Assembly (NCBI RefSeq): GCF_014200015.1
Contig: NZ_JACHOT010000003.1
Location: forward strand, 62,001-126,000
From: Aminobacter niigataensis
GTDB lineage: Bacteria > Pseudomonadota > Alphaproteobacteria > Rhizobiales > Rhizobiaceae
Reading direction: 5' to 3'
Length of the DNA: 64,000 nucleotides
This document shows, piece after piece, positions 4,503 through 64,000 of this stretch. Numbering within the stretch: the stretch's first letter is position 1; each line of letters starts with the position of its first letter. The position numbers were made by a program, and so were the translations under genes. Under the pieces are notes generated by a model. The model ran no database searches, was not told the DNA's origin, and worked only from the letters and a program-made list of their open reading frames with translations.

Positions 4503-6206
4503 TCAGAAGGTCTGGCCAACGATCATGGCGAGGTGCTCGACGATCGGGCCGACGGCAAGCGCCGGGAAGAAGGTCAGGCCGCCGACGATCAGGATGACGC
4601 CGGCGAGCAGGCCGACGAACAGCGTGCTGTCGGTCGGGAAGGTGCCGGCCGAGGCGGGAACGGTCTTCTTGGCGACCAGCGAGCCGGCAATGGCAAGCGC
4701 CGGGATGATGACCAGGAAGCGGCCCATCAGCATGGCGAGGCCGATGGTGATGTTGTACCAGGGCGTGTTGCCGGTGAGGCCGCCGAAGGCCGAGCCATTG
4801 TTGGCCGCGCCCGAGGTGTAGGCATAGAGGATCTCGGAGAAACCGTGCGGACCGGGCGTGCCGACCGAGGCCACCGCACTGGGGATCAGCACGGCGATGG
4901 CCGTGAAGCCGAGCATGGCGAGCGGCAGGCACAGGATGGCGAGCACGGCCATCTTGACCTCCTTGGCCTCGATCTTCTTGCCGAGATACTCCGGCGTGCG
5001 GCCAACCATCAGGCCGGCGACGAAGATGGCGATGATGACAAACATCAGGATGCCGTAGAAGCCTGCGCCGACGCCGCCGACGATGACTTCGCCGAGCTCC
5101 ATGTTGATGAGCGGGATCAAGCCGCCGAGCGCGGTGAAGGAGCCGTGCATGGCGTTGACCGCGCCGCAGGATGCGGCAGTGGTGACCACGGCGAAGAGCG
5201 ACGACAGGACGATGCCGAAACGGACTTCCTTGCCTTCCATGTTGCCACCGTCGATGCCGAGGGCATGGACGAGCGGGTTGCCGGCAGCCTCGGCCCAATA
5301 GGTGACGGCGACGCCGGCGACGAACAGGATGCCCATGGTGGCGAGGATCGCCCAGCCCTGGCGCTGGTTGCCGACCATGCGGCCGAAGACGTTGGTGAGG
5401 GCAGCACCCAGCGCGAAGATCGAAACCATCTGGATGAAGTTGGAGATGGCGTCGGGGTTTTCGAACGGATGCGCCGAGTTGGCGTTGAAGAAGCCGCCGC
5501 CATTGGTGCCGAGCATCTTGATGGCGAGCTGCGAGGCGACCGGGCCGACGGCGATGGTCTGCTGGGCACCCTCGACGGTCGCTGCGGTGACGTAGGCGCC
5601 GATCGTCTGCGGCACGCCGAGCCAGACATAGGCGAGCGTCAGCGCGATGCACAGCGGCAGGAGCACGTAGAACGTGGCGCGGGTCAGATCGACCCAGAAA
5701 TTGCCGATCGACTTGCCCGAGGCGCGGGCGAAGCCGCGGATCAACGCCATGCCGATGGCGATGCCGGTGGCCGCCGAGACGAAGTTCTGCACCGTCAGGC
5801 CGGCCATCTGCACCAGGTAGGACATGGTGCTTTCGCCGCCGTAGTTCTGCCAGTTGGTGTTGGTGACGAAGCTGACGGCGGTGTTGAACGAGAGTTCAGG
5901 CGGCACCGCGCCCATGGCCGCCGGGTTGAACGGCAGGTCGCCCTGCACGCGCTGCAACAGGTAGAGCAGCAGGAAGCCGGCAACGTTGAAGGCGAGCATG
6001 GCCGCGGCATAGCCGGTCCAGTGCTGGTCCTCGCGCTCGCTGGTGCCGGCAAGGCCGTAGAGCAGGCGCTCGACCGGGACGAGGACGGGGGTGAGGAAAG
6101 TGCGCTCGCCGCTGAAGACGCGGTACATGTAGCCGCCGAGCGGCTTCACGAGCAAAACGACGACCCCGCAAAAAACGAGGATCTGTAGCCAGCCATTGAT
6201 GGTCAT
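4503..6206 (-). CDS. kdpA: KdpA, potassium-binding channel-like subunit
   Basis: Channel-like subunit of KdpFABC that binds and selects potassium in the membrane. 567 residues with about ten hydrophobic segments. The four pore-loop blocks are recognisable: [38 protein letters not shown], a glycine-rich [17 protein letters not shown] region and [12 protein letters not shown]. The start ATG at 6206 gives [19 protein letters not shown], entering the first helix immediately. It is the third gene of the operon, after the mini-protein and kdpF. Confidence 0.98.
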
Positions 6207-6422: not shown

Positions 6423-6600
6423 CTCCGGAATCCTTTCCTGAAATCGTCCCGGCAGGCCGGGCGTTGGGTCGATGCACGACGCGACGGCGCCTGCGTTGCG
6501 GGCGCCGTCGGCAGAACTGTCGATGTCAGGGGGAATCTGGGGCAGAACCGCATTAAGGTTCGAGAGAGCGGCGCACTGAAAGAAATAGGAATTTCATAAA

Positions 6601-6637
6601 GAAAACGGCCCCAAGGCGGATGCCTGGGGCCGTTTTC
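6601..6637 (-). terminator. Intrinsic terminator downstream of the glutathione transferase gene
   Basis: The outer arms gaaaacggcccc (6601-6612) and ggggccgttttc (6626-6637) pair perfectly. An inner aggc/gcct continues the stem around the loop ggat, with one bulged A at 6613. On the minus strand it ends in a T-rich stretch (TTTTCTTTAT). It sits about 50 bp past the stop of the upstream gene and before the kdp promoter region. A-rich sequence on the other side makes it potentially bidirectional. Confidence 0.85.
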
Positions 6638-6686
6638 TGTGGTCACAGCATGTGATTGCCGCATCAGTAGAGCGGCAAGCAATACG

Positions 6687-7292
6687 TCAGGCCAGGCCTT
6701 CGGCGCGCAGCGCCTTCTGCACCGCTGGGCGGGCGGCCACGGTACCGAGATAGCGCTGGATGTTGGTGAAGGACGACAGGTCGATGCCGACATGCTTGGC
6801 CCAGCCGAGGATCGTCCAGAGATAGGCGTCGGCGGCAGTGAAGGCATCGCCCATCAGGTAGGAACGGCCATCGAGCTTGGCGTCGACATAAGCGAGGCGC
6901 CTGGCGAGAAGCTCGCGGTTGATCTCCTTGGTGGCCTCGGGCGTGTTGGGCTTGAAGAAGGCGCCGAAGACCTTGTGCAGCTCGGTGGCGACAAAGGCCA
7001 GCCACTGCTGGACACGGTAGCGCGCCATGTCGCCGGCCTTGGGCATCAGGCCGCTCTCGGGCTTCTGGTCGGCAAGGTACTGGACCAGCACCGAGGCCTC
7101 GGTCATCAGCTCTCCGTCGCCGAGCACGAGCGCCGGCACATAGCCGTTGGGGTTGGTGGCGAGGAAATCCTGCTGGGCTTCGGTGGTCTTGGTCTTGCCG
7201 TCGACCTTGACGAGATCGAGGTCGATGCCGACTTCGTTGGCGACGATGTGGGGTGCCAGCGAGCAGGCGCCGGGCATATAGAAAAGCTTCAT
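6687..7292 (-). CDS. Glutathione S-transferase (beta/theta-like, GstA type)
   Basis: A soluble enzyme predicted to conjugate glutathione to electrophiles. 201 residues. The N-terminal thioredoxin-like domain starts MKLFYMPGACSLAPHIVANE; the Cys10-Ser11 motif is typical of bacterial beta-class enzymes, whose Cys10 can form a mixed disulphide with glutathione. The substrate pocket block includes NPNGYVPALVLGDGELMTEA, and the C-terminal helical domain carries FTAADAYLWTILGWA. The start at 7292 was chosen over upstream in-frame codons because it aligns with the family N-terminus. It is monocistronic, ending at a strong terminator. Confidence 0.92.
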   Translation of the reverse strand: MKLFYMPGACSLAPHIVANEVGIDLDLVKVDGKTKTTEAQQDFLATNPNGYVPALVLGDGELMTEASVLVQYLADQKPESGLMPKAGDMARYRVQQWLAFVATELHKVFGAFFKPNTPEATKEINRELLARRLAYVDAKLDGRSYLMGDAFTAADAYLWTILGWAKHVGIDLSSFTNIQRYLGTVAARPAVQKALRAEGLA

Positions 7293-50581: not shown

Positions 50582-52096
50582 TCACTCGATGTCGAACGAC
50601 ACGCCCTGCGCCAGCGGCAGCGCCTTGGAGTAGTTCACGGTGTTGGTGGCGCGGCGCATGTAGGCGCGCCAGGCGTCCGAACCGCTCTCACGACCGCCGC
50701 CGGTCTCCTTTTCGCCGCCGAACGCGCCGCCGATCTCGGCGCCCGAAGTGCCGATGTTGACGTTGGCGATGCCGCAGTCCGAACCCTCGACCGACAGGAA
50801 GCGCTCGGCCTCCTGCAGGTCGAGCGTGAAGATCGACGACGACAGGCCGGCACCCACCGCGTTGTGCAGTTCCAGCACCTGGTCGAAGTCGGAATACTTC
50901 ATCACATAGAGGATCGGTGCGAAGGTCTCTTCGAGCACCGGGCCGACCTGGCCCGGCATCTCCACCAGCGCCGGCTTGACGTAGAAGGCGCCGTCATGGC
51001 CGTTGTCGACGCGGGTGCCGCCGGTGACCTTGCCGCCATGTCCGGCTGCTTCCTTCAGCGCCTTCTGCATGCCGTCGAAGGCGGCCTTGTCGATCAGCGG
51101 GCCGACCAGCGCCGAGGTCTCCAGCGGGCTGCCGACCGAAACGCTCTCATAGGCCTTCTTCAGGCGCGGCACGAGCGCGTCGTAGACGCTGTCATGCACG
51201 AACAGGCGGCGCATGGTGGTGCAGCGCTGGCCGGCGGTGCCCATGGCGCCGAAGGCGATGGCGCGCAGTGCCATGTCGAGATTGGCCGTCGGGCAGACGA
51301 TGCCGGCATTGTTGCCGCCGAGCTCGAGGATGGCGCGGGCAAAACGCTTGGCCAGCCGGGGGCCGACATCGCGGCCCATGCGGGTCGAGCCGGTGGCCGA
51401 CACCAGCGGCACCTTGGGGTGGTCGACAAGCACCTCGCCGACGGCGCGGTCGCCGATCAGCACCTGCGACAGGTTTTCGGGCGCATCGGCACCGAAACGG
51501 GCCGCGGCGCGCTTGAAGATCGCCTGGCAGGCAAGGGCGGTCAGCGGCGTCTTTTCCGACGGCTTCCACACCACCGCGTTGCCGCAGACGAAGGCGAGGG
51601 CGGCATTCCACGACCACACCGCGACGGGGAAATTGAAGGCGGAGATCACGCCGACCACGCCGAGCGGGTGCCACGTCTCCATCATGCGATGGCCGGGGCG
51701 CTCGGTGGCGATGGTCAGGCCGTAGAGCTGGCGCGACAGGCCGACGGCGAAGTCGCAGATGTCGATCATTTCCTGGACTTCGCCCAGGCCTTCCGACGGG
51801 ATCTTGCCGACTTCGATCGACACCAGCCGGCCGAGGTCGGCCTTGGCGGCGCGCAGTTCCTCGCCGAGCAGGCGGACGAGTTCGCCGCGCTTCGGCGCCG
51901 GCACGTTGCGCCAGGCCTTGAAGGCCTTGTCGGCACGTTCGATGGCCTTGCCCGCCTCGGCAGGCGAGATCGACGTCAGCGCGCCGATCTGCTCGCCGGT
52001 CACCGGGCTGCGCACGATCAGGTCGCCACCAGCAAGCGTGTCAACAGCCACGCCAAGCCGCGCAAGGAGCTCGTCAGTCGCGTCCAATAGTGTCAT
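50582..52096 (-). CDS. amaB: Alpha-aminoadipate semialdehyde dehydrogenase (ALDH7 family, AmaB)
   Basis: 504 residues from MTLLDATDELLARLG, with GGTGG ahead. ALDH7/antiquitin features include PSEGLGEVQEMIDICDFAVG, SAFNFPVAVWSWNAALA, the catalytic Glu in ILELGGNNAGIV and nucleophile Cys in GTAGQRCTTMRRLFVH. Oxidises 2-aminoadipate-6-semialdehyde (open form of piperideine-6-carboxylate) to L-2-aminoadipate with NAD+. Family assignment is strong, and context agrees with lysine breakdown. Confidence 0.93.
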   Translation of the reverse strand: MTLLDATDELLARLGVAVDTLAGGDLIVRSPVTGEQIGALTSISPAEAGKAIERADKAFKAWRNVPAPKRGELVRLLGEELRAAKADLGRLVSIEVGKIPSEGLGEVQEMIDICDFAVGLSRQLYGLTIATERPGHRMMETWHPLGVVGVISAFNFPVAVWSWNAALAFVCGNAVVWKPSEKTPLTALACQAIFKRAAARFGADAPENLSQVLIGDRAVGEVLVDHPKVPLVSATGSTRMGRDVGPRLAKRFARAILELGGNNAGIVCPTANLDMALRAIAFGAMGTAGQRCTTMRRLFVHDSVYDALVPRLKKAYESVSVGSPLETSALVGPLIDKAAFDGMQKALKEAAGHGGKVTGGTRVDNGHDGAFYVKPALVEMPGQVGPVLEETFAPILYVMKYSDFDQVLELHNAVGAGLSSSIFTLDLQEAERFLSVEGSDCGIANVNIGTSGAEIGGAFGGEKETGGGRESGSDAWRAYMRRATNTVNYSKALPLAQGVSFDIE

Positions 52097-52138
52097 GAAA
52101 TCCACCTTTCCGTTTCGTTCGCGGGGATGACCCGATCT

Positions 52139-53560
52139 TCAGAGGTGCACCGCGCCCACTGCACCGGGCGACGTCACCTGCCTGAACTGTGCCGCCATCT
52201 GCTTCAGCTTTGCTGGAGTATAATGATCGTAGAAATGCTGGTTGCGGCGACCGAGGCCATGCTCGGCGCTGTAGCTGCCATCATGCTCCTCGACCGCGAT
52301 TCTCGTCACATAGGTGCGCAGCCGTGCCGCCAATTCGACGTCAACGCTGCCGTCCGGGCTGCGTGGCACCACTAGATTGAAGTGCACGCCCCCGTCGCCA
52401 ATATGGCCAAAGTCACTGATCTCGACCTGCGGGAATTCTGCCGCCAGCAAGACGGCCATGCGCTCGCGGAACCGCATCACCTCCCCGCGCCGGAAGGAGA
52501 GATCGAGCCCAACAACGTTGCCAGCCGATTTCGCCCCTTCGGACAAGGCGTGCCGCAGCGCCCACATCTCGGAAGGAGCACCGATGAAGGCGTCGAGCAG
52601 CGGACCTCCGGGCAGTTCCCAGATGTCGGCCAGTATCTCTTCCAGCACGGCGTCGAGCGACTGTTCGCCCGCTCGCGGCGCCCATGAACGGGAGAGTTCG
52701 ACGAGGATGACATAGGCGGGGATATCGCCACCCGGAAACGGATTGCGTAGCGCGGGCGCGTGGGCAAGCGCGTGGCGGATCGCTTGTCCCGACATGCCTT
52801 CAAAGGCATTGAGATAGGTGCCGGCGCGTTCCTCCATCTCCGAGAGCAGGAGAAGCGCGTCTTCGCCCCCGCGCGGCACCAGATAAGCGGTGGCCGTCTG
52901 TTTCGGCAGGCGTTCCAGATTGAAGGTGCATTCGGTGACGATGCCAAAGGCACCGCCGGTGCCAATGAAGAGCTGCTTCCAGTCGGGGCCGGAATTGTCC
53001 TTGCGCAGTCCCGCGCCGCAATCCAGTACCGTGCCGGACTTGTCGCCCAGCACCAATTTCAGGCCGAGCGTGTTTCGGCGGACGTCGCCGAAACGCAGGA
53101 AACGCGTACCACCCGTATTCGTCGCTACCATGCCGCCCGCCATGGGATCGGCCCCCAGATCGATGGGGAAGAACAGGCCGTACGGTTCGAGCCGGGCGTT
53201 GATCTCGGAAAGCCGGAAGCCCGCATCCACGCATAGACTGCGATTGTCGATGTCGAGTTCGAAGGTGGAACGCAGGCGATCGAGGCTGAGTACACCCTGC
53301 ATACCGCTATCGTCCGGCGTTGAACCGCCGACGAGACCGGTATTGCCGGACTGCGGCACCAGCGCGATGGAATGGCTGACGCAATAGGCCACTACCTGCG
53401 ACACAGCCTCGGTCGAGGCCGGTCGTGCGACAAAGGCGGCGCGGCCACCATCATAACGCGCACCGCTTTCGTAAGACGCCATGTCGGCCGGTTGGCTCAA
53501 CAGGCCCTGCGGGCCGAGAATGGCGCCGAGCCCGTCGATGTGATCCGCGGCGAGCATCAT
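52139..53560 (-). CDS. D-2-hydroxyglutarate dehydrogenase (FAD-linked oxidase family)
   Basis: 473 residues. FAD-binding type 4 domain (LVPQSGNTGLVGGSTPDDSG, GADPMAGGMVATNTGGTRFL) and the C-terminal FAD-oxidase domain with metal-binding SDFGHIGDGGVHFNL and EHDGSYSAEHGLGRR. Predicted to oxidise D-2-hydroxyglutarate, the HglS product, to 2-oxoglutarate. The start codon overlaps the HglS stop (TGATG). Glycolate or D-lactate dehydrogenases are alternatives by fold only. Confidence 0.88.
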   Translation of the reverse strand: MMLAADHIDGLGAILGPQGLLSQPADMASYESGARYDGGRAAFVARPASTEAVSQVVAYCVSHSIALVPQSGNTGLVGGSTPDDSGMQGVLSLDRLRSTFELDIDNRSLCVDAGFRLSEINARLEPYGLFFPIDLGADPMAGGMVATNTGGTRFLRFGDVRRNTLGLKLVLGDKSGTVLDCGAGLRKDNSGPDWKQLFIGTGGAFGIVTECTFNLERLPKQTATAYLVPRGGEDALLLLSEMEERAGTYLNAFEGMSGQAIRHALAHAPALRNPFPGGDIPAYVILVELSRSWAPRAGEQSLDAVLEEILADIWELPGGPLLDAFIGAPSEMWALRHALSEGAKSAGNVVGLDLSFRRGEVMRFRERMAVLLAAEFPQVEISDFGHIGDGGVHFNLVVPRSPDGSVDVELAARLRTYVTRIAVEEHDGSYSAEHGLGRRNQHFYDHYTPAKLKQMAAQFRQVTSPGAVGAVHL

Positions 53561-54957
53561 CAAGCTGCGGCCGCCATCGCCCTGACGGCGACCAAGCACT
53601 GTCCAATAGAAGCACGCTCGATGCCGGCATAGTGATCAAATTCGCTAAGCACGCTGGAGCCCAGCGCCGCCTCGAACAACTTCTGGTTCGGGCTTGCCAC
53701 GAATTCCTGCACGTTACCGTCGCCCAGATTGGACTGGAAGATGCCAGCGGCCGATACGGGCAGAAAATCCTCGTAGACGATTGGATCGAAGCGAACAGCC
53801 CCTGCTTTGATCAGGGCCTCGATGTCACCTCCGGGAAACTTGGAAGGGTCGCCGGCCGGCACGACAGTATAAAGGAAATAGCCAAGCCCCGCCCTGCGGA
53901 TGGCGTTCCAATCGTCAGGAAAGGCTTCGAAGCTGTCCTCCAGAGCAGTGCTATAGGCGTGCGCGTTGGAGCCGTCTGCGGCCGGGCGGACGTTAGCCCG
54001 CACCTCGTTGAGCAGGCGGTCGTAGAGGGCGCGGCCCTTCGGCGTCAGCGCGATGCCGCGCTGTTCGATCTCGCCGAAACGGGCGGTATGGGAGCCACTG
54101 GAAAGATTGCCTTCGGCATCGAGGAACGAAACACGTTCCTCGATCGCCTTGAAAGATGTCTGGCGCAGCAGGATCGGGCAGGCACGACTCGGCGGTCCTT
54201 CGATCACGGCCTTGGGGACGATCCCGCGCCCTGGCATCTCGTCCTGCACGGCGTCGATGTCCAGCGTACGTGGGGTGAGGTGGTTGATGTGGGGTCCCTT
54301 GAAAGAAACGACGTCGGCAATCAGCCGGTGCGCCGCGTGCAAACGGTCGTAGAGCGCCTGATCGACGCTCGCCATTTCGTGCCAGCGGAAGGTGTTCAGC
54401 ACTTCGCCTACGAAACGCGCGCCATCAACCTGGGACAGCCCCCCGCTGCGCTCAGCCTTCTCCACAAGCGCAAGGGCCGCGTCGGAAAAGATCCGCCGTG
54501 CGGCGAGCATTTCTTGCGCTGCGGCACGCAATTCGGGATCAGCGATCAGATCGAGTCTCAGAAGTGACGTGAACACCCGGAACGGATTGATTTTCAGTGA
54601 CGCTTCATCCACCGGACGGAAGGCCGTGGCATGAACCGGCACGCCAGCTTCGCTGAGATCGTAATAGCCGACCGGAAACATGCCCATCACGGCAAAGACG
54701 CGGCGCATCATGGCAAGCTCGGCCTCTGTACCGAGCCGAATTGCACCATGCCGCTCCTCCGAAATGCGGTCTAGCGTCTCGGTGGCCTCAAGGCTGGCGT
54801 ACAACTCGGGCTGGTCGTCAAGGGTCCTCGCATTGACGTCACCCACCAGTTTCATCAGCGTGCCATAGGCCGGCACTTCCTCGCGATACATGGCCGACAT
54901 TGCCGCCGAGAAGGCCGATCGGATCGTGTGCGGCGCTACGAAAATGGCATCTTTCAT
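53560..54957 (-). CDS. hglS: 2-oxoadipate dioxygenase/decarboxylase HglS (DUF1338, hydroxyglutarate synthase)
   Basis: 465 residues. Iron(II) enzyme converting 2-oxoadipate to D-2-hydroxyglutarate plus CO2. The ligands known from Pseudomonas putida HglS can be read at matching positions: His70 in EERHGAIRLG with the substrate-binding Arg74, His226 in GPHINHLTPR, and a Glu at 296/298 in RFGEIEQRG. It is the first gene of the lysine-catabolic operon and divergent from a LysR gene, as in P. putida where amaA-amaB-lysR-hglS are adjacent. Confidence 0.93.
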   Translation of the reverse strand: MKDAIFVAPHTIRSAFSAAMSAMYREEVPAYGTLMKLVGDVNARTLDDQPELYASLEATETLDRISEERHGAIRLGTEAELAMMRRVFAVMGMFPVGYYDLSEAGVPVHATAFRPVDEASLKINPFRVFTSLLRLDLIADPELRAAAQEMLAARRIFSDAALALVEKAERSGGLSQVDGARFVGEVLNTFRWHEMASVDQALYDRLHAAHRLIADVVSFKGPHINHLTPRTLDIDAVQDEMPGRGIVPKAVIEGPPSRACPILLRQTSFKAIEERVSFLDAEGNLSSGSHTARFGEIEQRGIALTPKGRALYDRLLNEVRANVRPAADGSNAHAYSTALEDSFEAFPDDWNAIRRAGLGYFLYTVVPAGDPSKFPGGDIEALIKAGAVRFDPIVYEDFLPVSAAGIFQSNLGDGNVQEFVASPNQKLFEAALGSSVLSEFDHYAGIERASIGQCLVAVRAMAAAA

Positions 54958-56020: not shown

Positions 56021-56389
56021 TCATTCGATGTGGACGCCCATTGCCCGATCTGCAAGCAGGGCTTCCTGCTGAAAGTCCGCGAAGGGCCTCAACAGCGAGG
56101 TGAGTGGAACGCCCAGCGCCCGAGAGAGGGCCTGCAACGTCGATAGCGACGCGGATATGATCCCATTCTCGATCTTGGACATCATGCCGAGCGACAGTCC
56201 GGCGGCTCGCGCGAGTTCCACCAGCGTCATGCCAAGTTTTCTGCGGCAGGCCCTGACCTCTCGTCCAATCGAAACCTCAAGAAAATTCCCTGCCGGGTAC
56301 TGCTCGGCTTGCGCATCAGTCCACAGGCTCGGCGGCTCGAGGCTGCGTTTCCGCGGATGGACGCAAAGGTCGAGGGCTGTCCTTTTCAC
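56021..56389 (-). CDS. XRE-family regulator lacking its cupin domain (truncated)
   Basis: 122 residues from a GTG that overlaps the stop of the oxidoreductase gene by 4 bp (GTGA) with GGAG upstream. The helix-turn-helix LVELARAAGLSLGMMSKIEN and the following STLQALSRALGVPLTSLLRP match XRE-cupin regulators, but the reading frame stops at MGVHIE, exactly where the roughly 100-residue cupin domain normally begins. Either a recent truncation or a stand-alone repressor without its sensor. It ends 46 bp from the convergent LysR gene. Confidence 0.75.
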   Translation of the reverse strand: MKRTALDLCVHPRKRSLEPPSLWTDAQAEQYPAGNFLEVSIGREVRACRRKLGMTLVELARAAGLSLGMMSKIENGIISASLSTLQALSRALGVPLTSLLRPFADFQQEALLADRAMGVHIE

Positions 56390-57789
56390 CTGACATCTCC
56401 GATCAGCGTTGCATTGACGTCGGTACCGGAAGGCTTGCTGCACGTGCCATTTGCGCGGCTCGCGCGCTCCATCTTTTGACGGAGCTCGATAACCGGCGAT
56501 TGGATCGGGTCTTCAACATCCGACCAGCGCAGGTTGCTCCCCTCCGCCACTGGCGACTTGAGGCGCACGTTGCTGGCCAGCGCGATTGGCAGATATCCCA
56601 TCTCGATGCTGCGGGCGGCTGTCGTCAGCTTGCCCCAGACGCAGAAGCCTCCCTCTCCGTCGAGGACTTCCCCTGCTGCCAGGTCGCGCTTTGCAACGGC
56701 GACAACGTCTGCCCGGAACTTGGTTGGCGCTCCAGTGGGCTCGTGCCGAATGGCCATGCTTGCCACCGATATGCCGAGTTCCAGGCCTATGAGGTGGAAG
56801 GGCTTGTACATGCAGGCAAACTGTCCGTTGGCATCGGTGGTGAGCCCGTATTCGCTGAAGCAGCGCGCGACATAGGGAGATGGCGCTTCGAACACGGTAA
56901 ACACGCCCCATCTGAGATGGCGCGGCACCTCGTGCCCGTCGGCAAACACGGATGAGACGACTTCCACCCGACCTGTCCGGGAGATCATGCCGTCGTCATC
57001 GCGTGGCTTGAGCTGCTCGGCTATATCGTCAACGCCACAGGCGGGAAACCGCAGACCATCAACCGGGGCATCGAGCCCGGTCGCGTTCGCCACGGCCGCC
57101 ATTTCCAAAGCCGACTTCGTTCCGTCCAGGAACGAGTTGAACATCTTCGGATTGAGGCGGCCAAGCTGGGCTTGTTCCTGCGTCAAACTGTAATGGTCCC
57201 AAACCGTCTCCGGCGTCGAAGCATGATAATGGAGCCGATGTTTGGTGCCCTTGCCTGCCGCGACCACATGGAGCCCTGCAGCACGCGCCCAATCCACCAT
57301 CTCGCAGATCAGGGCCGGCTGGTCGCCATATGCCAGCGAATAGATGACGCCTGCCCGTTTGGCCTCCCTGGCCAAAGCCGGGCCGACCAAGGCATCGGCC
57401 TCCACATTCACCATCAACACATGCTTGCGGAAGCGGAAGCATTCCAGCGCGTGCAGCGCGCCGGCGACCGGATCGCCGGTCGCCTCGATGACGATGTCCA
57501 CGAAGGGGCTGCTGATCAGGTCGTGGGGATCTTCGGTCACCCCGACGCGCTCCTCGCGAACGGCGTCCTCGATGCCACGCCGGCAAATCATCTCCCTGGG
57601 ATGGCCGGTGACGGTGATTGCAGCTTCGGCATTCGCCAGCGAGAGATCGGCGATCGCGACGAGTTGAAGGCCGGGAGTGCGCAGGCATTGCGAGACAAAC
57701 ATCGAACCGAACTTGCCGGCGCCTATCAGGCCGATGCGTATGCTGCGTCCTTGCGCCTCCAGGGCACAGAGTTTGGCATACAGGTTCAT
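56386..57789 (-). CDS. NAD(P)-dependent oxidoreductase with SAF domain (homoserine dehydrogenase-like)
   Basis: 467 residues from MNLYAKLCALEAQGRSIRIG, chosen for the GGAG seven bases ahead. Rossmann motif IGLIGAGKFGSMFVSQCLR near residue 18 and the catalytic-type domain resembling homoserine dehydrogenase/Gfo-Idh proteins; the C-terminal SAF segment KRDLAAGEVLDGEGGFCVWG. Such proteins are often called flagellar FlgA-like by automatic tools because of SAF. The substrate in this hydantoin operon is unknown, presumably a product of the hydrolysed ring. Confidence 0.82.
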   Translation of the reverse strand: MNLYAKLCALEAQGRSIRIGLIGAGKFGSMFVSQCLRTPGLQLVAIADLSLANAEAAITVTGHPREMICRRGIEDAVREERVGVTEDPHDLISSPFVDIVIEATGDPVAGALHALECFRFRKHVLMVNVEADALVGPALAREAKRAGVIYSLAYGDQPALICEMVDWARAAGLHVVAAGKGTKHRLHYHASTPETVWDHYSLTQEQAQLGRLNPKMFNSFLDGTKSALEMAAVANATGLDAPVDGLRFPACGVDDIAEQLKPRDDDGMISRTGRVEVVSSVFADGHEVPRHLRWGVFTVFEAPSPYVARCFSEYGLTTDANGQFACMYKPFHLIGLELGISVASMAIRHEPTGAPTKFRADVVAVAKRDLAAGEVLDGEGGFCVWGKLTTAARSIEMGYLPIALASNVRLKSPVAEGSNLRWSDVEDPIQSPVIELRQKMERASRANGTCSKPSGTDVNATLIGDVR

Positions 57790-57933
57790 CGCGCGTCTCC
57801 AGGTCATGGTGCAGACAGCGCGGCGGGTGGCGCGTTGCTGCAGGCAATCAGGACATCGATGCCGGACGTGGGTGTGGGAAACCGGCAATACCCTCGGGTG
57901 CTGGAGAAGCCGGCATCCGAGGGCAGATGGTTG

Positions 57934-59277
57934 TCAGCGCTGATAGGCGGCCCCGGTGACCATTGTTCGCGTCGACAGCGCCCAGAACAGAAGGAAGCTG
58001 CTGATGACCGTCGCCGGCGCGGAGAGCAATTCCAACTGCGGAATGACGAGCAGCACGATGCCGATGCCGACCGCCCCAAACCAGGCAATCATTCCGGGGG
58101 CATAGTAGGCGGGGAAATCATCGTCTGGCCGCGCGGCGTCCTCACCCGTGCCGTCATGTTGTCCACACAGGATGTATGCCAGGGCAACTCCGACCCAGGC
58201 GACCACGAAGATCCCCTGATAGGCGAGTGCGACGAGCAGATACTGGAAGATGTTGGCGAGCATCACGAAGTAGACGATGACGCCGACGATGATCGCCCAG
58301 ACATATTTTGGCATCTCAAGCTTGAACACCAGCCGGAAGAACGCCTGCATGTTGACGGTCGACAGATAGAAGTTGGTGGTGTTGATACGGGTCTGGCTGA
58401 TCCAGACGAACAACAGGCCGAGAGCGCCCATCATCACGATCAGGGCCTTGACGACGGAAACTTCCGATGTCGCGCCCTCGAGCGGGATCGTCTGCACGAG
58501 AAAGATGCCGACCAGGCCGTTCACGAAATAGGTGAGGGTGTAGAACGGCAGGCCGAAGTTGAAGACGGCGTGGTAGTTCTCGTCCTCCTTCTTGCCGAAG
58601 CGGGCGAAGTCGAAGGTGCACATCATCATCCACCAGACGCCCATGAAGGCGATGAAGACGTTGATCCAGCCATAGGGCGGAGCGCCGCCATCCGGCGTCA
58701 TGGTGAGCCATGCGTTGCTGTAGCCGTAGTGGGAAATCGCGTAGATCACCGTGCCCATCAGGCCGAGCAGATACAGCGGCAGCAGGTAGCCGTTGAACTT
58801 GTCGAGCCAGTGCTGGACGCTGCCAAGGATCAGCGGCACGCTGTAGATGCAGACGATCAGCGCCGCGACCGCGAAGGTCAGGCCTTCAAAATAATAGGTC
58901 GCCGCGGTGGCGATCACCGAGCCTTCGAACACGGCGTAATAGATGCTGCTGACGGCGTAGATGAAGGTCGCGATTGCGGACCCGTAGCGTCCGAACAGCA
59001 ATCGGGAAAACAGCGACACGGACAGTCCCGACCGGATGGCGTAGCGCGTAATCACCGCATTGATGGCCGAATACGAGATCACGGTCAGGATCAGGCCAAT
59101 GATCGTGTTGGCGGTACCATAGATCTCGGCAAGCGTTGCCGAGATGATCAGGAAGAACATGGCACTGCAGATCGCCCAAAATGCCATGGTAAGATTGAGC
59201 TTCGGCATGCGCCCGCTTGGCGGGACGGGCCGTTGCGAATAGTCCAATTCGCCTGCGACATCGATACTTCCAGACAT
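57934..59277 (-). CDS. NCS1-family permease (cytosine/hydantoin/allantoin-type)
   Basis: 447 residues with about twelve membrane segments, from MSGSIDVAGELDYSQRPVPP. Family-consistent segments are FWAICSAMFFLIISATLAEI, YAVSSIYYAVFEGSVIATAA and the FDFARFGKKEDENYHAVF loop. NCS1 proteins import cytosine, hydantoins, allantoin or thiamine with cations. Its place downstream of hyuA-hyuB makes a hydantoin or cyclic amide the best guess. Gap to hyuB is 81 bp. Confidence 0.88.
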   Translation of the reverse strand: MSGSIDVAGELDYSQRPVPPSGRMPKLNLTMAFWAICSAMFFLIISATLAEIYGTANTIIGLILTVISYSAINAVITRYAIRSGLSVSLFSRLLFGRYGSAIATFIYAVSSIYYAVFEGSVIATAATYYFEGLTFAVAALIVCIYSVPLILGSVQHWLDKFNGYLLPLYLLGLMGTVIYAISHYGYSNAWLTMTPDGGAPPYGWINVFIAFMGVWWMMMCTFDFARFGKKEDENYHAVFNFGLPFYTLTYFVNGLVGIFLVQTIPLEGATSEVSVVKALIVMMGALGLLFVWISQTRINTTNFYLSTVNMQAFFRLVFKLEMPKYVWAIIVGVIVYFVMLANIFQYLLVALAYQGIFVVAWVGVALAYILCGQHDGTGEDAARPDDDFPAYYAPGMIAWFGAVGIGIVLLVIPQLELLSAPATVISSFLLFWALSTRTMVTGAAYQR

Positions 59278-59358
59278 AGCTCCCTCCGGATTTCTTGTTT
59301 TAGGCTCGACTGGCTGAGGCGGCAGCAAGCCCGCTACCGGGCTTGCTGCCTGATGGCG

Positions 59359-61365
59359 TCAGGCGACCTTCAAGGTCGCCCCGGCGGATTGGCCCGCCGT
59401 CCAGTAGGGAACGGTCCGGCGCTTGAGCATCTCGCGGAACTCGGCTGTGGTCTTGGGAAGCAACTCGCCCGAACCCCAGTCGACGATGACGCCGTATTGC
59501 CGGATCAGGTCGAACATATCGAGTTCTCGGGCGCGATAGCGCGCCGCGACTTTCTCGGCATCCTCGCTCAGCCAATCCCTGCGGTGCGATGCAATCCTGG
59601 CGCGTTCGGCAAGCGTCGCCTGTTCGTCCAGTTTGTACTCGTTGAGATCGGCATCGACCTCGTGGACGACAACGCCGTAGTCCTTCTTGGCGCGCCCGAT
59701 AGAGACGTAGCCTTCGATCACATCGTTCAGCACACTTTCGATATCGCGCTTGAGAGGATCGCCAAGGCCGCCGCCGCCTGCCGAGGGGCGCTGGACCGTA
59801 TCGCCCTGCTGCAGCGGGACACCTGAGAAGAGGGAGCCGAGATAGCGCTCGCTCTCCTGGCCCTGGTTGATCCACACCCCGTGCGGGATCGAAGGCAATC
59901 CGCCCCACAATCCCCAGGTGATCGAGCGTTCACGGTCGCAGCAGTAAGACACCACGGTGCGTTCGCATGCGTAGAGCGTGCCGCCCTTCTGGACGCCCAG
60001 GCCGCCGCGAAACTCGCCGGGGCCACCGGAATCGACCATCAGTTCGTGGCAGGTCGTCAGGACAGGGGAAAGGCGCTCCTGCCCTTCAAACGGTTGCGTC
60101 CCGAGCTGGACGCCAAACACCGGACCAGTGGCCGCCCAGCCGTCACGGCCGTTTCGCGCGCCCCAGCCACCGACCATCCAGTCGTACCACATGAAGTACG
60201 GCTTGCCTTCGTGGCGCGTATCCCGGCCACCGATGAGCAGGTAGTCGAGATTGAAGGTGCAGGCCATGGCACGCTCGGGCAGGACCTCTGCCCAGAGCTC
60301 GAAGACCGCATTCATGATCTTCTCGAACGGGCCGGACGCAAAGCCGGCAACCGGCGTCGGCCACTCGGCGTTGACGACCGATCCCAATGGACCGGCATCG
60401 ACCGTCACCACGCGGTAGAAGCCGGAGTTCATCGGAATGTCGGGCGACTGCATCTTGGTTCCGGCGACCACCGCGGCGAATGCGCCTCCGTAGCAGCAGT
60501 TCAGGAACGAGCCGACGGACTTGGGGTGAGAACCGGTCAGGTCATAGTGGACGCGGTCGCCATCGATGGTCATCTTCACCTTGATCGGGACCAGGCCTTC
60601 GCCTTCGTCGGGATCGACGTCGATGTAGTCGATGGTCTCCCAGGTGCCGTCCGGCAGCTCCGAGATGCGTTGGCGAGTCATGTCCTCGACGTAGTCCTGG
60701 ACCTCGTTGAACGACTTCTTGATCGTCTCGACGCCGTACTTGTCGCACAGGCGCTGGACCTCTCGCTCGGCAAGCCGGCATGCTTCCGACTGGGCCTGCA
60801 AGTCGCCGATGATGTCCTTCGGCGCACGCGTGTTGTGGGCGATCAGTTCCGCGACATCCGAGAGATAGACGCCCTTGCTGTAGACGCGCACCGGCGTGAT
60901 GCGCAGCCCCTCGGCCATGTGGTCCAGGGCATTGACGTTGAACGAGCCGGGGACGGCACCGCCGACATCGGCCCAGTGACCGTTGGCTTGAGCAAAGCCA
61001 AGCAGTTCGCCCTTGTAGAACATCGGGGCAAACAGGCGCGTGTCGTTGAAGTGGGTGCCGCCCTGGTAGACGTCGTTGATGACGAAGACGTCGCCGGGAT
61101 GGACGTCATCCCCGAACTTCTTGATCACGGCCTTGGCAGTCAGGTGAAGCGTGCCCACGTGAGCGGCAATGTCGCCGCTGCCTTGCATGATGGTGTCACC
61201 CTTCGGATCGCAAAGGGCCGAGGAAAAGTCTCGGGAGTAGATGACGAACGAGTAGCATGTCCGCAGGATCTGCTCGGCCATCTGGTCGACGATGTTGACA
61301 TAAGCGTTCTTCAGAACTTCGAACGTGACCGGATCGAGCGTACGGCGATCTTTTTTCAGTGCCAT
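59359..61365 (-). CDS. hyuB: Hydantoinase/oxoprolinase subunit B (HyuB)
   Basis: 668 residues from MALKKDRRTLDPVTFEVLKN. The family start LDPVTFEVLKNAYVNIVDQM, the EQILRTCYSFVIYSRDFSSA region, HPGDVFVINDVYQGGTH and the terminal AGGGGLGDPLKRD are hallmarks of N-methylhydantoinase B. With HyuA it hydrolyses a cyclic amide (hydantoin, 5-oxoproline or caprolactam-like) at the cost of ATP; substrate is not determined by sequence. It follows hyuA after 42 bp. Confidence 0.94.
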   Translation of the reverse strand: MALKKDRRTLDPVTFEVLKNAYVNIVDQMAEQILRTCYSFVIYSRDFSSALCDPKGDTIMQGSGDIAAHVGTLHLTAKAVIKKFGDDVHPGDVFVINDVYQGGTHFNDTRLFAPMFYKGELLGFAQANGHWADVGGAVPGSFNVNALDHMAEGLRITPVRVYSKGVYLSDVAELIAHNTRAPKDIIGDLQAQSEACRLAEREVQRLCDKYGVETIKKSFNEVQDYVEDMTRQRISELPDGTWETIDYIDVDPDEGEGLVPIKVKMTIDGDRVHYDLTGSHPKSVGSFLNCCYGGAFAAVVAGTKMQSPDIPMNSGFYRVVTVDAGPLGSVVNAEWPTPVAGFASGPFEKIMNAVFELWAEVLPERAMACTFNLDYLLIGGRDTRHEGKPYFMWYDWMVGGWGARNGRDGWAATGPVFGVQLGTQPFEGQERLSPVLTTCHELMVDSGGPGEFRGGLGVQKGGTLYACERTVVSYCCDRERSITWGLWGGLPSIPHGVWINQGQESERYLGSLFSGVPLQQGDTVQRPSAGGGGLGDPLKRDIESVLNDVIEGYVSIGRAKKDYGVVVHEVDADLNEYKLDEQATLAERARIASHRRDWLSEDAEKVAARYRARELDMFDLIRQYGVIVDWGSGELLPKTTAEFREMLKRRTVPYWTAGQSAGATLKVA

Positions 61366-61407
61366 TTCTATTCTCCAATACAAATTGTGTGGGGATGGGC
61401 GCTGTCT

Positions 61408-63468
61408 TCAGGAAAGCTGGGGAACGTGCATCTTGATGATCAGATACTCGTCCACTTCGGCCTTGATCCCGGGCGGAACGACAATGGTGGAGTCGAGCTG
61501 GTCGATGATCGCCGGCCCTTCCACCACCGCGCCGGCATGCAAGGTCGAGCGGTCGTAGACCGGCGTCTTGATGCGCTGGGGTGCCTCGTCGAACCGCACC
61601 ATCCGTTGACCGATCGGTGCCGGCAGCGGAGCCTTGCGCAACTCGTGTTTCGCCAGTTCCGCCTTTCGGTTCAGGCCGGTGGCCTTCACTTGGATGCGGC
61701 ACACCTCGACCGGAGCATCCGGCCTGGAGTAGTTGTGTTCGCGGCCATGTTCTTCGTGGAATTGCTTGACCGCCTCATCCAGGTTCGTGATGTCGGCACT
61801 CACCGGAATTGACATCGACCGCCACTGGCCGAGATAGCGCATGTCGATGTAGCGCTGGAACAGCATGCGGTCGGGAGAGATGTCCTCGCTCAACAGGCGG
61901 TCGCGGCCGTCTTCTTCCAGCACGCGGAACGCGTTGTTGAGTTCGGTCATGTCGATGTCGCTGACCGTGTCGGTGTACATCTGCGTGATGTCGTGGGTGA
62001 TGTCGACGAGCAGGCAGCCGAGCGCGGAAGTGACACCAGGGTTCGGCGGGATGAGAACGACCGGGATGTACAGGTCCCTGGCAAGTGCCACGCCATGCAG
62101 TGCGCCCGCGCCTCCGAACGCGACCAATGCGAAGTCGCGCGGGTCATAACCCTTCCTCAGCGAGACGAGGCGCACGGCGTCCGCCATGTTGGCGTTCGCG
62201 ACCTTGAGGATCGAAAGCGCTGCCTCCTCGGTGTCCATGCCGAAAGGTTCGGCAATGACGCGGTTGATGGCACCTTCCGCAAGCTTGATGTCGAGTTCGA
62301 CCTTGCCACCTGCAAGCTTGGTTCCGAGACGTCCGAGGAAGACATTGGCGTCGCAGTTGGTCGGCTCGGTGCCGCCATGGTTGTAGCAAACGGGGCCCGG
62401 GGTCGAGCCCGCTGATTGCGGACCGTTGCGCAGTGCCCCGGCCTTATCGCGCCAGGCCAGCGAACCGCCGCCGGCCCCAATGGTCAGCACTTCGATGCTC
62501 GGGAAGCGGATCGGATAGCCGTATTCCACATGCCAATCGTTGGTGACGTGGAGATGGCCATCCGAGCACAGGCTGATGTCCGTGCTGGTGCCTCCCATGT
62601 CCAGGCTGATGGAGTTCTTGTATCCTGCCAGTTCCGAAATGAAGCGGCTTGCAATCGCACCGGCGGCAATGCCGGACGCTGCAAGACGCGCGGCAAACTT
62701 CGTCGCGCCCTTGGCGGTCATCACACCGCCGCCCGAGTGGAGCAGCAGCACCTCGCCGCTATAGCCGCCGTCCTGCATGCGGCTCTCGAGCTCGGCACCG
62801 TATTGTCCCGCGACCGGCCCAAGCACGGTGTTGGCAACGGTCGTATTGAAGCGCTCGTGCTCGAAGATTTCCGGCATGATGTCGCTCGACAGCGAAATCG
62901 AAACGCCAGGGAGTTCCTCCAGCAGGATGTCGCGCATCCGTTGCTCGTTCTCGGGATTTACGAACGAATTCACGAAGCAGATGGCAACGTTGTTGACCTT
63001 GCGCTTCCTGATCACGCGGGCAAGTTCGCGCGCCTCGGCTTCATTGACCTCCGAGATGACTTTTCCGGAGTAGTCGATGCGCTCCGTGACCACCAGGCGG
63101 TCGCGGCGCGGCAGATAGGGAGCAGCCATCTCCTTATAGGTGTCCCAAAGGTCGTCGCGGGTGCCGCGACGAATCTCGATGACATCGCGAAAGCCCTTGG
63201 TCGTGACCATGATCGCTGGCGGGAAACGCCGGGTGATCAGCGCGTTCGTCGCCAGCGTCGTACCATGCGAAAACAGGATGATATCGCGCAGGGCGACGCC
63301 GCCCGCTTCGATCCCCTTGAGCACGCCGTCGATGGGGTCCGGCGTCGTCGGCGTCTTGGCCACGTGTATCTTGCCGGAAGCCTCGTTCAGGACGCACACG
63401 TCCGTAAACGTGCCTCCTACGTCGCAGGCAACGCGTACCATTGACCTATCGGTTGGTTCTGCAGTCAT
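61408..63468 (-). CDS. hyuA: Hydantoinase/oxoprolinase subunit A (HyuA), ATP-binding
   Basis: 686 residues from MTAEPTDRSMVRVACDVGGT, preceded by GAGGAAG. The ASKHA-type phosphate motif CDVGGTFTDVCVLNE, FSHGTTLATNALI, the second DMGGTSTDISLCSDG and TIGAGGGSLAWRDKAG are intact, as is the DFALVAFGGAGALHG motif. It activates the cyclic amide with ATP; HyuB completes hydrolysis. First gene of the operon, behind a 390-base leader with an ANTAR-type antitermination structure. Confidence 0.95.
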   Translation of the reverse strand: MTAEPTDRSMVRVACDVGGTFTDVCVLNEASGKIHVAKTPTTPDPIDGVLKGIEAGGVALRDIILFSHGTTLATNALITRRFPPAIMVTTKGFRDVIEIRRGTRDDLWDTYKEMAAPYLPRRDRLVVTERIDYSGKVISEVNEAEARELARVIRKRKVNNVAICFVNSFVNPENEQRMRDILLEELPGVSISLSSDIMPEIFEHERFNTTVANTVLGPVAGQYGAELESRMQDGGYSGEVLLLHSGGGVMTAKGATKFAARLAASGIAAGAIASRFISELAGYKNSISLDMGGTSTDISLCSDGHLHVTNDWHVEYGYPIRFPSIEVLTIGAGGGSLAWRDKAGALRNGPQSAGSTPGPVCYNHGGTEPTNCDANVFLGRLGTKLAGGKVELDIKLAEGAINRVIAEPFGMDTEEAALSILKVANANMADAVRLVSLRKGYDPRDFALVAFGGAGALHGVALARDLYIPVVLIPPNPGVTSALGCLLVDITHDITQMYTDTVSDIDMTELNNAFRVLEEDGRDRLLSEDISPDRMLFQRYIDMRYLGQWRSMSIPVSADITNLDEAVKQFHEEHGREHNYSRPDAPVEVCRIQVKATGLNRKAELAKHELRKAPLPAPIGQRMVRFDEAPQRIKTPVYDRSTLHAGAVVEGPAIIDQLDSTIVVPPGIKAEVDEYLIIKMHVPQLS

Positions 63469-63710: not shown

Positions 63711-63743
63711 AAGCTCTCGCAGGCATATTTCCCACGAGAGCTT
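63711..63743 (-). terminator. Intrinsic terminator in the hyuA leader
   Basis: On the minus strand the arms AAGCTCTCG (63743-63735) and CGAGAGCTT (63719-63711) pair over 9 bp around a 15-base loop and are followed by TTTTGTTT. It lies about 240 bp upstream of hyuA, so it would stop transcription before the operon unless prevented. The 5' arm is shared with the second ANTAR hairpin. Confidence 0.85.
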
Positions 63744-63773
63744 CTTTGCTCAATTTCTTTCGCAACGTTGCGA
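63738..63773 (-). promoter_or_regulatory. Two-hexaloop ANTAR target RNA overlapping the hyuA terminator
   Basis: Minus strand: hairpin P1 UCGC-AACGUU-GCGA (63773-63760), an 8-base linker, then hairpin P2 GAGC-AAAGAA-GCUC (63751-63738). Both have 4-bp stems and six-base loops with A at position 1 and G at position 4, the defined ANTAR RNA motif. The 3' strand of P2 is bases 63741-63738, which are also in the terminator 5' arm, so P2 and the terminator are mutually exclusive. An ANTAR protein gene lies directly upstream. Confidence 0.8.
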
Positions 63774-63780
63774 TGATCTA

Positions 63781-63809
63781 TTGGTACTGCGACATATCGG
63801 CACTGTCAA
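63781..63809 (-). promoter_or_regulatory. Candidate sigma-70 promoter for the hyu leader
   Basis: Minus-strand TTGACA at 63809-63804, a 17-base spacer and TACCAA at 63786-63781 as a weak -10. The predicted start falls at about 63774, right at the first ANTAR hairpin. The -10 match is only three of six, so the call is tentative. Confidence 0.35.
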
Positions 63810-63857: not shown

Positions 63858-64000
63858 CTACAGCAGGTCCCGCGCGGTGATCACCGCCATGGCGATCGCC
63901 TCGATGGTCGTGCGCTTGTTCATGGCCTGCTCACGCAACGTCTCGTAGGCGACCTGTTCCGACACGTTGTTGGCGGCCATGAGAATAGCCTTTGCCTTGT
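63858..64000 (-). CDS. ANTAR-domain RNA-binding response regulator (partial, N-terminus beyond window)
   Basis: Only the last 47 codons are visible, ending KRTTIEAIAMAVITARDLL and a stop. The stretch AKAILMAANNVSEQVAYETL and LREQAMNKRTTIEAIAMAV is the three-helix ANTAR fold (AmiR/NasR type), which binds two-hairpin RNA and prevents termination. The N-terminal sensing or receiver domain is outside the window. It is upstream of hyuA on the same strand, and the RNA motif lies between them. Confidence 0.85.
   Translation of the reverse strand, partial: KAKAILMAANNVSEQVAYETLREQAMNKRTTIEAIAMAVITARDLL

Follow-up and report, generated by a model that had tools for sequence, protein, structure and literature searches.

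The leaders of the EutV/eutP and NasR/nasF systems contain two small stems capped by hexaloops whose first base is A and whose fourth is G (A1/G4), the second hairpin (P2) lying within a terminator (PMC3369931 and PMC8934654). In eutP both of these bases were important in each loop, and the Pseudomonas aeruginosa amiE leader, ahead of an enzyme gene, likewise combines two A1/G4 hexaloops with an overlapping terminator (PMC3369931). NasS-NasT, which serves nitrate assimilation in alphaproteobacteria, pairs a binding protein with an ANTAR protein (PMC3795266). We analysed a 64,000-nt stretch of Aminobacter niigataensis DNA (the window), in which an RNA of the amiE type precedes hyuA and where, as in P. 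aeruginosa AmiC-AmiR, the neighbouring regulator genes encode a ligand-binding AmiC homologue and a pseudoreceiver-ANTAR AmiR homologue. We conclude that the hyuA leader is very probably an AmiR-class ANTAR target RNA acting by controlled antitermination.

Judged against the features of Ramesh 2012, the hyuA leader has two hexaloop hairpins whose stems reach the required 3 bp or more and which a short linker joins, its loops AACGTT and AAAGAA both satisfy the A1/G4 rule, and an intrinsic terminator overlaps P2 (Table 1). The first-pass annotation had described two 4-bp A1/G4 hexaloop hairpins spaced by 8 bases, and exact matching recovered them at the positions it gave. It had also described a perfect 9-bp terminator sharing the 3′ strand of P2; here the overlap and the T-rich tail stand, the P2 3′ arm (63741-63738) being contained within the 5′ terminator arm (63743-63735), but the 9-bp limit does not, as the predicted folds give a longer stem. 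A 71-nt predicted fold (-34.3 kcal/mol, z -8.1) gives the terminator 19 bp, beginning at the third P2 base; in a 317-nt predicted fold its stem begins at the first base of P2. Since the predicted stem takes in P2, P2 and the terminator are mutually exclusive in these folds. The protein-free form of P1 is uncertain because the predictions disagree: the 71-nt fold gives 5 bp (one extra A-U pair) with an ACGU tetraloop, and the 317-nt fold gives the 4-bp hexaloop in the centroid and another structure in the minimum-energy form. Transcription presumably starts just before P1, at a putative TTGACA/TACCAA promoter; a consensus promoter scan called none in the leader upstream of P1.

Table 1. Features of the hyuA leader, the regulator genes and the downstream genes; positions are those of the window unless prefixed L006, the window's own locus
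Feature	Position	Strand	Basis or remark
AmiR-type ANTAR gene, 3′ end	63858..64000	-	runs past window end
Complete AmiR-type ANTAR gene, 212 aa as longest frame	L006:10859-11497		Pfam AmiR_N + ANTAR
amiC-type gene, longest frame; likely ATG near L006:12715	L006:11567-12853 (outside window, before amiR)		AmiC 1pea
TTGACA, presumed -35 box	63804..63809	-	inferred
TACCAA, presumed weak -10, 17 nt after TTGACA	63786-63781	-	inferred
P1 hairpin TCGC[AACGTT]GCGA, A1 + G4 hexaloop	63773-63760	-	exact matching; compensatory changes in Aminobacter-group leaders
P1-P2 spacer, 8 nt	63759-63752	-	exact matching
P2 hairpin GAGC[AAAGAA]GCTC, A1 + G4 hexaloop	63751-63738	-	exact matching; genome pattern searches
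Intrinsic terminator; extended stem includes P2	63704..63750	-	exact arms, predicted folds, compensatory pair changes
Terminator core arms AAGCTCTCG / CGAGAGCTT	63743-63735 / 63719-63711	-	exact matching
U-run of terminator	63712-63707	-	T-rich stretch after 3′ arm
hyuA, HyuA/oxoprolinase superfamily	61408..63468	-	likely ATG; longest frame starts 63486; Pfam
hyuB, longest frame	59359..61383	-	Pfam Hydantoinase_B; 6yra_B and 7hk5
Permease, probably cytosine/purine/allantoin (NCS1) family	57934..59328	-	alignment members
DRL/SAF-domain oxidoreductase	56386..57888	-	same orientation as hyu genes

The combination of a dual hexaloop and a terminator exceeds chance. When the 372-nt intergenic region was shuffled 20,000 times with its dinucleotides preserved, two A1/G4 hexaloops with stems of at least 4 bp and suitable spacing arose in 10 shuffles, and together with an overlapping terminator in none. 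A geometry scan of both window strands gave two matches, with A1/G4 in both loops only at the hyuA leader. A loop-relaxed scan (the same geometry, A or G at loop position 1 of P1, A at loop position 1 of P2, position 4 free) of 1.10 Mb of loci returned 62 matches, 36 of which obey the A1/G4 rule in both loops; the reversed-sequence control returned 12, one of which does. The 62 include copies of the hyuA leader (L003, L006, L008 and the near-copy L038), as well as double registers and NasT-like leaders from clusters of related loci. Outside the hyu loci, A1/G4 pairs with a terminator were present in only 5 of 24 AmiR-type loci (L052-L075), in none of the 29 loci L009-L037 with flanks of only 1.5 kb in the loop-relaxed scan, and in the geometry scan at none of the other four ANTAR loci of the organism's own genome.

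Pattern searches were also run on whole genomes. The pattern GAGCAAWGRMGCTC matched twice in the organism's own genome (5.28 Mb), in the hyuA and amiC leaders, with no match in the reversed control; as a P2 pattern without the terminator, it matched three times in six genomes (this one and relatives), the third match lying off the locus (G401:C7:131674). A P2-plus-terminator pattern had nine matches in ten genus genomes and none in their reversed control: eight at the amiCR-hyu locus in the six amiR-carrying genomes and a ninth elsewhere, in G403. Both P2 patterns were composed after inspection of these leaders, and neither covers the sister-species loops with A4; their information therefore lies in their rarity elsewhere.

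An ANTAR protein had been said to be encoded directly upstream, which is confirmed by the complete gene in L006. Its product comprises an AmiR_N pseudoreceiver (PF21332, 111.2 bits) and a C-terminal ANTAR domain (PF03861, 50.5 bits), and its best solved relative in a PDB search is AmiR (1qo0_D, 9.4e-23). The adjoining gene encodes a homologue of AmiC (1pea, 8.3e-85, 288.5 bits). We take its start to be MTKEPISVG, because the leader terminator falls inside the longer frame; begun there, the protein would have no export signal, as judged from the choice of start and not by a predictor. Since a homologue of AmiC is encoded ahead of the AmiR homologue, a ligand that frees AmiR is the probable signal. 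RNA recognition can be compared with EutV, for which the available text of PMC8934654 names ten RNA-contact residues, three of them contacting G4. When these are mapped on an alignment with a numbering offset of 2 deduced from the letters, seven of the ten are identical in the AmiR studied here (K147, E160, Y164, R168, M172, N173 and R175), and K143, R142 and R177 are replaced by R, H and T, respectively; among the G4-contacting residues, E160 and Y164 are thus retained and the third, R142, is H.

The genome carries five ANTAR genes, four besides the linked amiR, and two of the four encode AmiR-like paralogues with 36-37% identity to the linked protein, which would allow the switch to be real and another ANTAR protein to act on it, alone or additionally. 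We regard this as very unlikely in view of the company that the element keeps. AmiR (at least 88%) and HyuA (at least 95%) orthologues occur in the same six of ten genus genomes as the P2-plus-terminator element, the best HyuA of the remaining four (one only 81% complete) being 37-39% identical. An AmiR-alignment profile search of genome contigs, which retained 80 of 314 relatives, places hyuA and hyuB beside amiC-amiR in 14 of 15 loci (L038-L051, L053), in four arrangements; the exception, L042, ends 2.6 kb past amiR, and hyuA is absent from that stretch and from 6 kb upstream.

Sister leaders are found at the regulator genes themselves. A P2-type hexaloop with terminator stands before amiC in all seven Aminobacter/Mesorhizobium loci (L006, L038-L042, L159), which implies autoregulation of amiCR. 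P1 is canonical in four of these amiC leaders (L039-L041, L159); in those of L006 and L038 the P1 loop has 5 or 7 nt, and the geometry scan gave no match. It gave none either in the ten distant amiC leaders (L043-L051, L053), the amiC rows of L118 (gene outside the locus) and L119 (gene cut) not being counted. L039-L041 and L159 have a third P2-terminator leader behind amiR, with P2 loop AAAAAA, which in L039-L041 lies ahead of an XRE-cupin gene. A TTGAC box is located 40-47 nt before the P1 loop in all 13 leaders measured; among four further leaders it is present in three and missing from the amiC leader of L038.

Conservation of the hyuA leader was followed in 16 loci, taking 400 nt upstream of each gene (233 nt for L053); L046 and L050, where hyuA starts at the locus end, were left out, and L118 and L119 from the same two genomes substituted. 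The full canonical element is present in two, the window's own L006 and L038. The latter, from Aminobacter aganoensis, is the nearest named locus (AmiR 99% identical), and its leader region shows 92% column identity and has the same bases in P1 and P2. Three leaders (L039-L041) keep the architecture with loops GACGCT/AAAAAG, that is, G1 in P1 and A4 in P2, despite AmiR proteins that are 88-89% identical; these loops break the A1/G4 rule known from eutP (PMC3369931). In L159 (G398, about 6600-6720) P1 is kept and P2 and the terminator are gone, unlike in its amiC leader and the leader behind its amiR, which retain both; judged from sequence, the loss resembles one deletion relative to L041 and makes this leader a natural candidate for constitutive expression. 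The remaining ten leaders, all distant (L043-L045, L047-L049, L051, L053, L118, L119), gave no geometry match. The first-pass annotation had held that orthologous leaders without both hexaloops would count against its proposal: outside the Aminobacter group this is largely what is seen, the dual arrangement being missing in ten of ten, but not in the near relatives L039-L041, where the loop letters have changed and the architecture is kept. With the distant leaders lacking the arrangement and the near relatives keeping it, the dual-hexaloop switch looks like a trait of the Aminobacter clade and not of all amiCR-hyuAB loci.

These comparisons also bear on whether the element could be a plain intrinsic terminator of the amiCR transcript, with hexaloops arisen by chance and hyuA transcribed from a separate downstream promoter. 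The core stem starts 115 nt past the amiR stop codon, a place where such a terminator is expected, the L159 hyuA leader is without P2 and the terminator, and the consensus scan found no promoter ahead of P1. Nevertheless, we consider this explanation quite unlikely, given the TTGACA box upstream of P1, the similar element before amiC, the failure of 20,000 shuffles to yield the full arrangement, and the position of the hyuA element in L039-L041, where it lies in the divergent hyuA-amiC interval and not behind amiR.

Other hairpins were observed upstream of hyuA in the distant loci. L043 (Hyphomicrobiaceae, AmiR 68%) has, at about 5041-5058, the hairpin CGTCGC[AAAGAT]GCGATG running directly into TTTTT, so that the loop of this terminator-like hairpin is itself an A1/G4 hexaloop. 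Eight loci from Rhodobacterales and Labrys (L045, L047, L048, L049, L051, L053, L118, L119) share a hairpin CRTTC[AACARM]GAAYG, which lacks G4 and lies by eye at the presumed start site; after it come a second hairpin, which varies, and a tract rich in C. Seven of these upstream stretches yielded no terminator-like hairpin, and the eighth, L118, has a weak one. If AmiR still acts in these lineages, it would do so through a single-hexaloop, non-canonical code and a mechanism other than intrinsic antitermination.

We evaluated the paired positions within the Aminobacter group. In 13 leaders, 94.9% of P1/P2 cells pair; the amiC leaders of L006, L038 and L042 were left out, as their P1 departs from the standard hexaloop and spacing. 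Double-sided changes occur in three of five P1 pairs, the outermost being unpaired in 6 of the 13 leaders, and P2 has no double-sided covariation in this set. No shuffle among 500 reached the percentage paired, the double-change cells or the covariation score, while 321 reached the number of double-change pairs and 453 the number of pair types. For the terminator, 95.8% of cells are paired in nine leaders (the amiC leaders, which the alignment shifts by one column, were left out) and two of eight pairs have double changes, with 153 and 500 of 500 shuffles reaching the double-change pair and pair-type numbers, respectively. Because shuffles often reach these two numbers, and the sequences are related, the covariation support is moderate.

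The same changes argue against P1 being a DNA operator at the presumed start site, through which a repressor and not an RNA-binding protein would control the operon. The sequence TCGCAACGTTGCGA (63773-63760) is indeed a perfect 14-bp palindrome resembling LacI-family operators. In the sister leaders, however, the P1 loops are not palindromic (ACCGAT, ATCGAA, GACGCT, AGCGAT) and the hairpin is kept via compensatory changes; an operator would also leave P2 and its overlapping terminator unexplained. We consider this explanation very unlikely.

As a further comparison we built R1, a small covariance model of our own with 39 positions, from 14 ANTAR-like leaders of loci outside the amiCR-hyuAB set. 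Its input was 21 of the 62 scan matches picked by hand, a choice that leans to A1/G4 loops; L013, L083 and L091 (weak or odd P1/P2) and L052 plus strand, L078, L094 and L107 (short spacers) were dropped. As MAFFT alignments misplaced P1 where spacers differ, each sequence was entered as a string after cutting its spacer to 9 nt. R1, which is small and not a published model, did not single out the hyuA leader: at 13.7 bits it came third among 73 window matches (E=0.21), with E=0.0012 when the search was confined to the 372-nt intergenic region. The leader was not among the 30 matches listed from an own-genome R1 search (E up to 10); 20 of these 30 were scanned for geometry and terminator and yielded one match, without A1/G4 loops, and we therefore regard the R1 own-genome matches as noise. 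The Rfam gathering scan of the window called only a tRNA, and a permissive Rfam scan of the hyuA leader gave 17 matches, all under their family gathering scores.

The hyuA leader has further structure downstream of the terminator. A third A1/G4 hexaloop hairpin, TAGC[AACGAA]GCTA (63644-63631, minus strand), is the same in L038 and has no overlapping terminator; a second R1 match (63668-63631, 13.3 bits) was set aside for lack of such a terminator. Another predicted hairpin (63621-63577, minus strand) ends in TTTT and shows a compensatory change versus L038 (ATGCGGA/TCTGCAT versus ATGCAGT/ACTGCAT). It may be another terminator, a weak one, or may act on translation through its structure.

The enzymes downstream allow more than one substrate. 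The nearest solved sequence to HyuA is N-methylhydantoinase 7hk5, with 6yra also among the nearest for the pair, and HyuA and HyuB also match caprolactamase CapA and CapB with scores under the NCBIfam cut-offs; 6yra, deposited as 5-oxoprolinase/Hydantoinase, is presumably a caprolactamase structure. Lying near both hydantoinase and caprolactamase, the pair can be assigned only at the level of the superfamily, and 'hydantoinase operon' is therefore a superfamily name (hydantoinase/caprolactamase/oxoprolinase); hydantoin is a putative substrate of HyuAB. For the permease, the window protein itself had no convincing Pfam or NCBIfam match, nor one in PDB searches, and its structure prediction reached pLDDT 34; among the seven proteins of its alignment, however, four reach PF02133 with E<=0.1, the lowest value being 1.8e-7. 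From gene order alone, the DRL/SAF oxidoreductase possibly belongs to the same operon. Separately, an XRE-type gene at 56021-56443 (minus strand) corresponds to just the N-terminus of the XRE-cupin-like regulator behind amiR in L039-L041 (cupin label by eye), the remainder of which has no match within the window. Near the hyu operon, 50582-54957 (minus strand) encodes 2-oxoadipate dioxygenase HglS, an FAD oxidase and L-piperidine-6-carboxylate dehydrogenase, a region of lysine/2-aminoadipate catabolism. If HyuAB acted on a lactam, for example 6-oxopipecolate, the two would be tied together, which is pure speculation.

Control of the operon by antitermination would then proceed as follows. Transcription would start just upstream of P1 from the TTGACA promoter. 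Without signal, and by analogy with P. aeruginosa AmiC-AmiR, the AmiC-like protein would hold the AmiR-like protein, and the nascent RNA would form the long terminator (63750-63704), halting transcription before hyuA. Upon binding its ligand, for which a small amide, a lactam or a cyclic ureide processed by the operon is the probable candidate, AmiC would allow AmiR dimers to occupy the A1/G4 hexaloops, P1 then P2; with P2 held, its 3′ arm would be barred from terminator pairing, and readthrough into hyuA-hyuB-permease would follow. Regulated readthrough before hyuA, as first proposed, is supported at the sequence level by the chance control, the sister leader, the AmiC-AmiR pair, the retention of most contact residues, the rarity of the P2-plus-terminator pattern elsewhere in the genus and the compensatory changes in P1 and the terminator. 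Through the sister leader, amiCR would come under its own regulon, giving positive feedback. A broader reading, which we offer tentatively and think rather unlikely as a whole, is that AmiC-AmiR is a self-amplifying cyclic-amide sensor, with one AmiR governing amiCR and hyuAB via like leaders and an RNA code that drifts in relatives: three sister species have A for G at position 4 of the P2 loop in their hyuA leaders, a fourth has lost the P2-terminator module, and Rhodobacterales and Labrys have a conserved single hairpin without G4 instead.

Set beside the described systems, the locus differs in inputs and targets. EutV has a phospho-receiver and NasR a nitrate-responsive input domain, whereas here there is an AmiR_N pseudoreceiver with an AmiC partner. 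At sphingomonad ANTAR loci, putatively NasT, our scan recovers the order P1[AxxGxx]-GATGGC[AAAGCC]GCCATC-terminator; the spacer of NasT-like leaders is mostly 15-16 nt, compared with 8 in the hyuA leader, and signal and target differ as well. Relative to AmiC 1pea, the T-P of CYPTPYEG is A-Q in the AmiC studied here; counted along the alignment, this T-P would be residues 106-107 of the amide pocket. No report of AmiC-AmiR or ANTAR antitermination on hydantoinase-type genes was among the literature matches listed, which were mostly outside subscription journals, and the hyuA leader or a relative may already be within the ANTAR leader survey of 1902 genomes (PMC3369931). If our reading is correct, AmiC-AmiR antitermination extends to ATP-dependent hydantoinase/lactamase operons and points to a class of inducers that can be tested for enzymes of a superfamily relevant to lactam and hydantoin breakdown, and the natural series of canonical leader, altered loops and deleted terminator provides an in vivo test of A1/G4 strictness. 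Antitermination by AmiC-AmiR is already known; what is new is the target, hyuAB and an NCS1-like permease in place of the amidase of the P. aeruginosa amiE system, the second P2-plus-terminator leader, before amiC, by which the locus differs from that of P. aeruginosa, and the natural variants of the RNA code in sister species.
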